From Symmachiella dynata (GTDB taxonomy: Bacteria > Planctomycetota > Planctomycetia > Planctomycetales > Planctomycetaceae): a DNA stretch of 64,000 nucleotides. The notes beneath the pieces were generated by a model. That model did not search any database and was not told the origin of the DNA. It was given only the letters and a program-made list of their open reading frames with translations. Positions 2,998 through 50,669 of the stretch are shown piece after piece. A program made the position numbers and the translations under genes. The stretch is from NCBI RefSeq assembly GCF_007747995.1, contig NZ_CP036276.1, positions 2,595,001 to 2,659,000 of the forward strand, in the 5' to 3' direction. Each line of letters opens with the position of its first letter. Position 1 is the first letter of the stretch.

Positions 2998-3086
2998 ATA
3001 GCCACAGAGTTCACAGAGAACACCGAGAAAAGCTGTCCTCAGCGTTCATCGTGGTTTAGAGAACTTCTCTGTGAACTCTGTGCTCT
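2998..3086. repeat. Palindromic intergenic repeat, family A, copy 1 (left portion, split by the IS110 element)
   Basis: The left arm (2998-3032) and right arm (3064-3086) are inverted copies built of 9-nt units ending in CACAGAG. The right arm stops abruptly at 3086; its remainder (CTGTAGCTAAT) reappears at 4303-4313 on the other side of the insertion sequence, followed by a conserved tail at 4320-4345. An intact copy is at 50388-50521. Confidence 0.8.
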
Positions 3087-3326
3087 TGTATGTTGGATTT
3101 AACTGAAACAATTGATGTAATGGACATTGCCGTGGAAAAGGCTGCGCAGCGTAGCGAAGCAGGCTTTTCCACGGCGGCCGGCGGCAGATCGATCGTGCCC
3201 AGGTCCCCAGAGACCGTCACAGAGCGAGGTCGTCGTCGGCCTGTGGATTTTAGCCCGAACAGCCGCAAGAGCCGATCGCAACCTCGCGTCGCATCGAGCT
3301 CGCATTTGCAAGACAGGGACCGCTCC
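3087..3326 (+). ncRNA. Candidate IS110 bridge RNA in the left end of the element
   Basis: Folding by eye gives three modules in the order known for IS621-type bridge RNAs. (1) A 5' hairpin with a 12-bp stem, 3129-3140 with 3164-3175. (2) A 10-bp stem, 3176-3185 with 3232-3241, enclosing an internal loop and an apical hairpin (3202-3205 with 3212-3215). The 5' loop side holds GTGC (3195-3198), like the left target. The 3' side holds CACAGAG (3218-3224), complementary to the core and right target. (3) A hairpin, 3269-3279 with 3291-3301, flanked on the 5' side by ACAGCCGC (3259-3266), identical to the right end plus the core C at 4294-4301. On its 3' side TGCAAG (3307-3312) can pair with CTTGTA at 3085-3090 with one G-T wobble. 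The guide assignments are inference. Confidence 0.6.
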
Positions 3327-4274
3327 ATGGACAGCTCTATTACTTCCTTTGTCGGCATCGACGTCGCCAAAAACTCTTTCGATCTGTGTCTCCTTCCGCA
3401 GGAAACACAACACTCCCTCACCTATGACACGCAGGACCTTGAGCATTTGCATCAACTCCTGCCCCAACCGGAAACCTGTTTGATCGTCCTCGAAGCCACC
3501 GGCGGATATCAGCAACGGCTCGTCGCCGAACTGGCTGCCGCCGGACATCTCGTCGCCGTCGTCAACCCCCGTCAGGTTCGCGACTTCGCCAAAGGTCTCG
3601 GCATCCTGGCCAAGACCGACCGCATCGACGCTCGCGTCATCGCCCGCTTTGGGCAGCACGTCCGCCCCAGAACGATTGCCGAAAACCACGAAAAACAAGA
3701 GGAATTGCAGCAACTCGTCACTCGACGACGACAACTGATCGACCTCAGAACGGCCGAAACAAACCGGCAGGAATTTCCCGTCGCGAAGATCGTTCAAAAA
3801 AGCATGCAACAGATGATTACGTTGCTCAACAAACAAATCAAAACCCTCGACAAGCAGATCGCCGAACTGCTCGAATCCGACGACCATTGGAAAGACAAAG
3901 GCAACATCCTCGCTTCCGTTCCGGGCGTCGGCACGGTCACAGTCTGCTCGCTCTTGGCCGAACTCCCGGAACTGGGGCTGCTCAACCGCAAGGAAATTTC
4001 CGCCTTGGCTGGCTTGGCACCGTTCAATCGTGATAGCGGACGCTTTCATGGCAAACGCTCCATCCGCGGCGGACGCGCCTCGGTACGCAACGCCCTGTAC
4101 ATGGCCGCTTTCAATGCTAAACGCTGCAATCCCATCATTGCAGACTTTGCAAAACGGCTTACAGACCAGGGCAAGCCGTTCAAAATCATGATGACCGCCT
4201 GCATGAGAAAACTCCTCGTCATCCTCAATACGCTCGTCAAAAACAATTCGATGTGGAACCCCAAATATGCCTAA
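3327..4274 (+). CDS. IS110-family transposase/recombinase (DEDD type)
   Basis: A 315-residue recombinase. The N-terminal DEDD RuvC-like domain has VGIDVAKNSFDL, an LEATGGY glutamate motif and KTDRIDARVIARF with two further aspartates. A coiled-coil linker follows at about residues 155-200. The C-terminal Tnp domain has LASVPGVGTVT and GLAPFNRDSGRFHGKRSIRGG, whose serine is the expected second catalytic residue. The length fits the family (about 310-350). The ATG at 3327 is preferred: reading further upstream would run through the non-coding left end, and the family motif begins about 12 residues after this start. All key residues are present, so the element may be active. Confidence 0.92.
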   Translation: MDSSITSFVGIDVAKNSFDLCLLPQETQHSLTYDTQDLEHLHQLLPQPETCLIVLEATGGYQQRLVAELAAAGHLVAVVNPRQVRDFAKGLGILAKTDRIDARVIARFGQHVRPRTIAENHEKQEELQQLVTRRRQLIDLRTAETNRQEFPVAKIVQKSMQQMITLLNKQIKTLDKQIAELLESDDHWKDKGNILASVPGVGTVTVCSLLAELPELGLLNRKEISALAGLAPFNRDSGRFHGKRSIRGGRASVRNALYMAAFNAKRCNPIIADFAKRLTDQGKPFKIMMTACMRKLLVILNTLVKNNSMWNPKYA

Positions 4275-4300
4275 AAAACAATTGACAACAAACACAGCCG

Positions 4301-4345
4301 CTCTGTAGCTAATCCCCTGTCTGCAAGACCAAGTCGTCACGAAAA
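4301..4345. repeat. Family A repeat, copy 1, right remainder and conserved tail
   Basis: CTCTGTAGCTAAT (4301-4313) completes the right arm of the palindrome begun at 2998. The tail from 4320, TCTGC followed by CCAAGT and GTCACGAAAAA, matches the tail after the intact copy at 50494-50521 with few differences, which independently confirms the IS right boundary. Confidence 0.75.
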
Positions 4346-50304: not shown

Positions 50305-50669
50305 GTCTCTGCGGCGCAGCGAATGTCGATTTTCGCAGCCACAGATTTACCCAGCGCGGCTAGGCTGCAGCCAAGATTTTGAAAACAATTAGCCACAGAG
50401 GCCACAGAGTTCACAGAGAAAAAACTAAAACTGCGATGACCGCTCATTACAGTTTTCTCTGTGTCCTCTGTGCTCTCTGTGGCTAATGCTTAATCTGCGA
50501 ATGCCAAGTGGTCACGAAAAAGGCCCGCGGCGCATAGTCCATGTCTGTCAACTCGGAATGTCAGAACACCGGGGGGTAAGGCGAAATATGCATTATCAGC
50601 TTGACGGCAGAAAGAAAATTGCAGATGTTGCAGATGTTTGAGAGGAAGTGAATTCTGGATACGGTCCTC
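50305..50669. other. Intergenic holding the intact family-A repeat
   Basis: Apart from the palindrome at 50388-50521, the stretch shows no gene. Confidence 0.55.
50388..50521. repeat. Palindromic intergenic repeat, family A, copy 2 (intact)
   Basis: Arms ATTAGCCACAGAG...CTCTGTGGCTAAT span 50388-50487. Each arm holds three 9-nt units ending in CACAGAG. The conserved tail 50494-50521 (TCTGC, CCAAGTGGTCACGAAAAA) also follows copy 1. It serves as the empty-site reference for the IS110 insertion. Confidence 0.85.

Follow-up and report, generated by a model that had tools for sequence, protein, structure and literature searches.

An IS110-group element at CTCTGTG repeats

We analysed a 64,000-nt stretch of the Symmachiella dynata chromosome (hereafter the window), in which positions 3085–4302 constitute an IS110-group insertion sequence with a CT core at either end (3085–3086 and 4301–4302); its features are collected in Table 1. 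The genome (G000) holds three copies whose sequence inside the element is identical, and within 3080–4315 they differ at positions 3083, 3084 and 4307 alone, all three of them outside the element. Each copy sits within a CTCTGTGnn/CT/CTGTG repeat site (slashes set off the core), with left flanks CTCTGTGCT/CT, CTCTGTGTC/CT and CTCTGTGGC/CT, and right flanks CT/CTGTAGC in the window copy and CT/CTGTGGC in the other two. The CT core at both ends and the precision of insertion, both read from this three-copy comparison, are features of the IS110 group. In a sister genome of the same genus (G001), both flanks are kept (92.6% and 88.6% identity), and the element and the repeat array are absent between them.

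The single recombinase carries a DEDD RuvC-like domain (PF01548) and a Tnp domain (PF02371), the domain pair of IS110 recombinases, and is assigned to the NCBIfam family NF033542, 'IS110 family RNA-guided transposase' (score 237 bits, cut-off 140). At E 0.001, its matches in the PDB are ISCro4 (9t56, E 4.9e-39) and IS621 (8wt6_A, E 3.1e-38), with no others. D12, E56, D98 and D101 are invariant in all nine aligned recombinases, and Ser237 is present in eight of the nine, the window's included; alignment with the IS621 chain 8wt6_A likewise has the acidic residues and the serine conserved, as in the IS110 group. We take these five to be the catalytic residues, in line with the literature. The non-coding left end upstream of the gene is long (240 nt) and the right one short (26 nt, 4275–4300), which is the IS110-group arrangement; in IS1111 elements the long non-coding end lies downstream of the gene. 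A 394-aa frame running through the RNA region (3090–4274) was considered as the recombinase gene and rejected, because homology starts at residue 7 of the 315-aa protein that begins at 3327. Among relatives, the recombinase of L024 (copy b of genome G076) has R (NRDRG) at the position of the catalytic serine, with S in the other eight aligned, and the frames of L007 (G076 copy a), L027 (G012) and L006 (G023) are interrupted, each appearing as two tblastn pieces.

Table 1. Features of the element and its surroundings (window positions)
Feature	Positions	Strand	Remarks
Intergenic inverted CACAGAG / CTCTGTG array holding the target	3001..3084	.	
Left target, positions 1–7	3078..3084	+	CTGTGCT in window copy; CTGTGTC and CTGTGGC in the others; three-copy comparison
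CT core, left junction	3085..3086	+	Copies identical inward from here, differ at 3083–3084
Non-coding left end, very probably encoding a bridge RNA	3087..3326	+	Covariance model R1, three genome matches
-10 box TATGTT (predicted), expected at joined RE-LE circle junction	3089..3094	+	
5' stem-loop	3129..3175	+	11/12 pairs changed on both sides; absent from RNAalifold prediction on the same alignment
Target-binding hairpin	3176..3241	+	Stem 3176–3185/3232–3241, bulged A 3186, stem 3187–3190/3228–3231, inner hairpin 3202–3215
Left target guide GUGCCC	3195..3200	+	Target positions 3–8, register shifted one base; 5/6 identical to each of three targets
Right target guide CACAGAG	3218..3224	+	Complementary to CT+CTGTG; 7/7 in two copies, 6/7 in window copy
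Target-loop handshake guide CG	3225..3226	+	Would pair with donor positions 7–6 (G, C)
Donor-binding hairpin	3254..3318	+	CCC/GGG outer stem; inner stem 3269–3276/3293–3301, bulged A 3297
Left donor guide ACAGCCGC	3259..3266	+	Identical to 4294–4301
Right donor guide AUUUGCAAG	3304..3312	+	Pairs with left-end positions 8–14
Donor-loop handshake guide AC	3313..3314	+	First base A pairs with target T7 (3084), window copy only
AGGGA, 3' strand of donor-loop stem and probable Shine-Dalgarno of recombinase	3315..3319	+	GGG 8 nt before ATG
IS110 DEDD recombinase, 315 aa	3327..4274	+	PF01548, PF02371, NF033542; PDB matches IS621 and ISCro4
-35 box TTGACA of circle-junction promoter (predicted)	4282..4287	+	
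Left donor (element's right end), ACAGCCG	4294..4300	+	Copy and family comparison
CT core, right junction	4301..4302	+	Three-copy comparison
Right target	4303..4309	+	CTGTAGC in window copy, CTGTGGC in other two

The left end encodes a conserved structured RNA

An original prediction, made from the letters of the window alone, had placed a candidate bridge RNA at 3087–3326. These positions are the whole of the non-coding left end, and the RNA itself is narrower: the body conserved under the covariance model spans 3129–3321, and transcription is predicted to start near 3101, given the junction -10 box at 3089–3094. The model (R1) was built on 13 aligned RNA sequences (alignment A1), which represent 13 of the 16 families described below; G116, G118 and G142 were omitted as too divergent when judged by eye. 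At E 0.1 it has exactly three matches in the window's genome, namely the three copies, and a search with Rfam at gathering thresholds gave zero matches in the window.

The RNA has the architecture of a bridge RNA, a 5' stem-loop and then two stem-loops with internal guide loops. This is the fold that had been proposed, and it holds by comparison and when the hairpins are folded singly, each of the three giving the expected structure, but not as the minimum-energy fold of the whole region. Folded as a whole, 3087–3327 is stabler than its shuffles (z -2.68, with 1 of 200 as good) but adopts a structure other than the two-loop fold; the bridge fold, at -84.8 against -89.1 kcal/mol for the minimum, is 4.3 kcal/mol less stable. 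Support for the predicted fold is comparative, not energetic. From the 13-sequence alignment, RNAalifold predicted both loops unprompted and did not predict the 5' hairpin. When the structure derived from the window is laid over the 13 sequences, 89.7% of cells pair (75.6% in shuffled alignments, 0/500 as good), a percentage biased towards the structure because the structure was read from one of the aligned sequences. Changes on both sides of a pair are seen at 24 of 41 pairs (14.7 when shuffled, 0/500), and there are 50 further pair types (42.2 when shuffled, 5/500); the stems are thus conserved in relatives through compensatory changes, as had been anticipated.

The spacing of the GGG of the donor-loop stem from the ATG of the recombinase varies among relatives: it is 6–8 nt in L134, L135, L136, L148, L161, L179 and L199, and ranges from 2 to 52 over 74 loci.

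Target guides change with the insertion site

To follow the guides across relatives, we used two collections. The first came from a protein search of 149 related genomes, 15 of which (the window's own among them) gave matches; 16 families from 14 genomes were retained with one representative each, without G017, whose recombinase is partial, and without the additional or partial copies of G012, G087 and G118. For G132, the automatic anchor fell on an AGC lying too early, and a structure-based anchor was put in its place before the covariation test. A single-protein scan of genome contigs for recombinase relatives found none, whereas an alignment query did find relatives. The second collection comprises 80 named loci, the best 80 of 426 recombinase relatives. 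The covariance model matches beside all 80 (partially at L150, L191 and L201; the weakest full match, at L205, has E 1.6e-4). In this collection the columns of the model gave the guides, and the donor guide served to position the right end, independently of the target guides.

Ten families of the first set have variable right targets. In these, the right target guide is paired with its target at 49 of the 50 positions outside the core (shuffles averaged 19.1 with a maximum of 43, and 0/100,000 were as good; this and the other tail counts of the guide tests are not probabilities, because the shuffles keep composition and not relatedness). Base 4307 of the window is the one position that fails to pair. 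In the remaining six families the right targets start with CTAC, and there is no right-guide signal past CTAC (16/30 against 16.3 expected). In the second collection, 6 of the 80 rows lacked a usable right end or guide and another 5 repeated a guide pair; across the 69 distinct guide pairs that were left, 307 of 345 non-core positions pair (mean 109.5, maximum 147, 0/20,000), with 44 scoring 5/5, 19 scoring 4/5 and 6 scoring 3/5 or fewer. Two loci are shared with the first set (L199 with G132, L202 with G031); dropping them leaves 67 distinct guide pairs, in which 298 of 335 positions are paired (mean 106.3, maximum 139, 0/20,000). In elements inserted elsewhere, then, the guide segments differ along with the target. 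It is the size of this effect, which lies beyond chance by the shuffles, that makes the argument for guide-target covariation.

The left target guide covaries with its target too. Over positions 1–7 in 14 families, identity in the commonest register (shift 0) amounts to 61 against a mean of 40.6 (1/100,000 shuffles as good); with a free one-base shift, it reaches 70 against a mean of 51.6 (0/100,000), the shuffles being given the same freedom to take the best of three shifts. At a fixed shift of +1 the score is 49 against 41.1 (2,054/100,000), and at -1 it is 33 against 29.4 (17,340/100,000). In the second collection, 189 of 266 positions match in 38 loci (mean 108.0, 0/20,000). The left guide matches the left target across the class, and in the window itself at only 5/6. 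Of 343 genomes from the phylum, 13 gave matches to the covariance model; these include the genome of the window and some that belong to the first set. In G374 (four copies), G320 and G434, the left guide equals left target plus core over nine positions, one G374 copy having 1 mismatch, and in G285 the right guide pairs 7/7 with its right target; in several other newly matched elements, one end was unplaceable or lay at a contig end.

In the window element, CACAGAG was found where it had been predicted, at 3218–3224, as the reverse complement of CTCTGTG and hence complementary to core plus right target. The predicted mismatch with the local copy at 4307 is real: the window copy carries A where the two further copies in the genome carry G. 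The left guide had been called the weakest match, and so it is, with 5 of 6 bases at positions 3–8 in each copy; the GTGC on which that reading was based is present, although it is part of the longer GUGCCC and not the whole guide. This guide is imperfect in all three copies and lies one base out of the commonest register, and a site fitting it perfectly, GTGCCCTCTGTG, has zero occurrences in the genome. The left guide of L134 fits best in the same shifted register (7/9 with core, on a by-eye reading). A similar misfit is tolerated by IS621, for which 129 of 173 insertion sites are described as ATCAGGCCTAC while the loop encodes ATCGGGCCTAC (PMC11208160).

Covariation extends to the donor-loop handshake guide, whose first base is complementary to target position 7 in 12 of 14 families (all but G023 and G076a) and in 37 of 42 loci; the A of the window element pairs in one of its three genomic copies. 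In the target loop, the first handshake base, C, faces donor G7 in 16/16 families, and since both are invariant there is no covariation to score. The arrangement in the window is consistent with the one described for IS621 in PMC11208158.

Donor guides and a predicted promoter at the circle junction

The donor guides match the element's own ends, as they do in bridge RNAs. The 5' segment of the second loop had been predicted to equal the right end plus the first core base, and ACAGCCGC at 3259–3266 is indeed identical to 4294–4301. Across the 16 families, the left donor guide equals right-end positions 1–8 at 8/8 in 14 and at 7/8 in two. Because the motif used to find the right ends already fixes most of these bases, the variable base alone is a free test; it follows the right end (C, T or G) in 16/16 families, and guides covarying with their own ends had been part of the original prediction. 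On the other side of the loop, TGCAAG (3307–3312) pairs with CTTGTA at 3085–3090 with one G.T wobble, again as proposed. The right donor guide changes with the left end: CTTG goes with CAAG in most elements, CTCG with the guide CGAG in G003, L140 and L146, and CTAG with CTAG in L179. The contacts listed for the IS621 right donor guide (A-U to T14-A13, G.T12, and CAAG to C8-G11; PMC11208158) agree with AUUUGCAAG of the window.

When the right and left ends are joined in silico, they form the promoter-like sequence TTGACA-N17-TATGTT. TTGA at the junction-promoter spacing occurs in 49 of 60 elements, a count that leans upward because the choice of right end for the named loci favoured a nearby TTGA. 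A sigma-70 scan of the integrated element found zero promoters, which fits a promoter existing at the joined ends only and is not evidence for it. A circle junction of this kind is the reported source of the IS621 RNA (PMC11208160).

Relation to known elements

The closest comparison is with IS621, as it is described in PMC11208160 and PMC11208158. Both elements have a 5' stem-loop, a target loop and a donor loop in this order in the left end, and both have a CT core; the loop order, target first and donor second, agrees with PMC11208160, as had been claimed for the window. The right donor guide contacts and the handshake bases are also shared, as is insertion into dispersed intergenic palindromes, which are REP sequences in IS621; a circle-junction promoter like that of IS621 is predicted for the window element. 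The window target differs in being a CTCTGTG tandem array and not REP; the window's right target guide is complementary over 7 nt where 4 (G77–G80) are reported for IS621; and the window's left target guide is weaker, the IS621 RNA being compared here through its published description. ISCro4 provides an IS110 recombinase with a solved structure (9t56), the best PDB match, and was compared by recombinase only.

ISEc21 and the seekRNAs of IS1111/IS110 elements, likened here by description only, share an NCR-derived RNA that matches both target strands, under another name; in the account of PMC11187229, a seekRNA of IS110 type lies upstream of the gene, as in the window element. Insertion of IS elements into dispersed palindromes was already known (PMC1525189), and ISPpu9 and other REP-inserting elements likewise enter one position of a dispersed intergenic palindrome (PMC8450116, PMC1525189). 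ISPpu9 also has a structured 5'-UTR over its ribosome-binding site, like the probable one of the window element, but what PMC8450116 describes for it are regulatory sRNAs and not guides, and the likeness again is by description only.

Target repeats in the genome

Across the genome there are 52 intact CTCTGTGnnCTCTGTG sites, 26 per strand, some of them in the arrays that hold the copies; the reversed control pattern occurs 0 times. Relaxed matches to a longer form of the site number 8 in the window against 0.09 expected. The genome has two related intergenic repeat families, CTCTGTGnnCTCTGTG with its 52 sites and CTCCGTGnnCTCYGTG with 16, all of the latter being CTCCGTG on both sides, and several of the repeats form inverted pairs some tens to fewer than 200 bases apart. 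Three copies of the element lie beside the 52 intact CTCTGTG sites and 0 in the CTCCGTG arrays (16 sites), numbers too small to test. The idea that occupied sites are those with the best left-guide fit was rejected: one of the two spacer bases is C at 29 of the 52 intact sites, so that its presence at 3/3 occupied sites lacks significance (about 0.17). At window positions 50392–50483 there is another inverted CTCTGTG array, unoccupied, which holds targets of the L002 type (CTCTGTGTCCTCTGTG) and of the window type (CTCTGTGCTCTCTGTG).

A bridge RNA and its alternatives

We conclude with high confidence that the left end encodes the bridge RNA (seekRNA) of an IS110-group insertion sequence, and it is well supported that the window element is a new example of a known mechanism. 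The element ends, the three precise insertions, the predicted RNA fold and the covariation of guides with targets and donors come from comparing sequences; by analogy with IS621, the RNA would be transcribed, would form an RNP with the recombinase and would direct catalysis. On this model the recombinase would excise the element as a circle, in which the joined right and left ends would create a sigma-70-like promoter (TTGACA-N17-TATGTT) driving transcription of the left-end RNA. The first loop would recognise a CTCTGTGnn-CT-CTGTG target, the left guide GUGCCC acting on the bottom strand and the right guide CACAGAG on the top strand, such that a target of the form CTCTGTGTCCTCTGTGGC would be expected to receive an insertion at CT. 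The second loop would recognise the element's own ends through ACAGCCGC and AUUUGCAAG, and the recombinase would exchange strands at the CT cores. Target, guides, ends and predicted junction promoter can all be read from the three copies.

The element might instead be a dead relic whose former bridge RNA no longer works at CTCTGTG sites, which the imperfect left-guide fit and the changed base (4307) in the right target of the window copy could suggest. We consider this unlikely: three identical copies with an intact 315-aa frame stand at different sites, pointing to recent movement, and two of these sites match the right guide 7/7. Less probable still is that the left end is merely a structured 5' untranslated region controlling translation of the recombinase, its resemblance to the target being coincidental. 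The donor-loop stem does contain a probable ribosome-binding site in the window and in several close relatives, and the 5'-UTR structure of ISPpu9, an element found in REP sequences, is described as likely including the ribosome-binding site and limiting translation (PMC8450116); loop bases that covary with the flanks of each element are unexpected of a pure untranslated region, however, and the two roles can coexist. That the guide matches are flanking repeat sequence captured into the element end, with no RNA guidance of insertion, is highly improbable even with a target that is a simple repeat with 52 intact genomic occurrences, since the right guide sits in reverse-complement sense within a conserved stem-loop, 132 nt away from the junction, and the pattern of guide matches recurs for unrelated targets in tens of elements.

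Guides and repeat families across the clade

The closest named element among the best 80 of 426 relatives is L134, from a Pirellulales MAG, with 69% recombinase identity. Its right guide and right target are CACGGAG/CTCCGTG, against CACAGAG/CTCTGTG in the window and CGCGGAG/CTCCGCG in G003; the one-base step in guide and target that separates near relatives has the appearance of natural reprogramming. In its left guide the window element has retained UCGUG, a sequence that would match a CCGTG unit. Where the target is a direct repeat, the two target guides are mutually complementary, and a perfect left guide would therefore close the loop, which may select for an imperfect one; and since the donor-loop stem doubles as the probable ribosome-binding site of the recombinase, RNA folding and enzyme synthesis would be mutually exclusive. 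One tentative reading, less likely than not, brings these points together: the guides of the clade may track intergenic repeat families by single-base steps with the left guide lagging, an imperfect left guide may be selected, and folding of the RNA and synthesis of the enzyme would exclude each other. Targets in repeat arrays also offer a natural graded-mismatch set for left-guide tolerance.

Related targets recur in other genomes. In G441, which has seven matches, the six analysed have right targets starting CTCTGTG (2), CTCCGTG (3) or CTTGTGT (1), with the right guide UACGGAG; in three of these six copies (L113, L123 and L128), the left end opens with its 13-base sequence CTTGTATGATTAA in tandem duplicate. 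In another family of the phylum, L115 (G283, positions 1501–1663) is a bridge RNA at a CTCTGTG site with left flank AATCTCTGTGTT/CT; its right target guide, CACAGAG, is that of the window and its donor loop is degenerate, and the 3.2-kb locus gave no match to a recombinase. L035 (G001, 1544–1696) is the relic of a bridge RNA, its donor loop truncated and its right guide a different one, CAAAGAG; no recombinase matched in its locus, nor in the G001 genome at E 1e-40. A third bridge-RNA copy with no recombinase match in its locus, L132 (G374, 1501–1679), has a donor loop that looks deleted and a left guide that still fits its own left flank.
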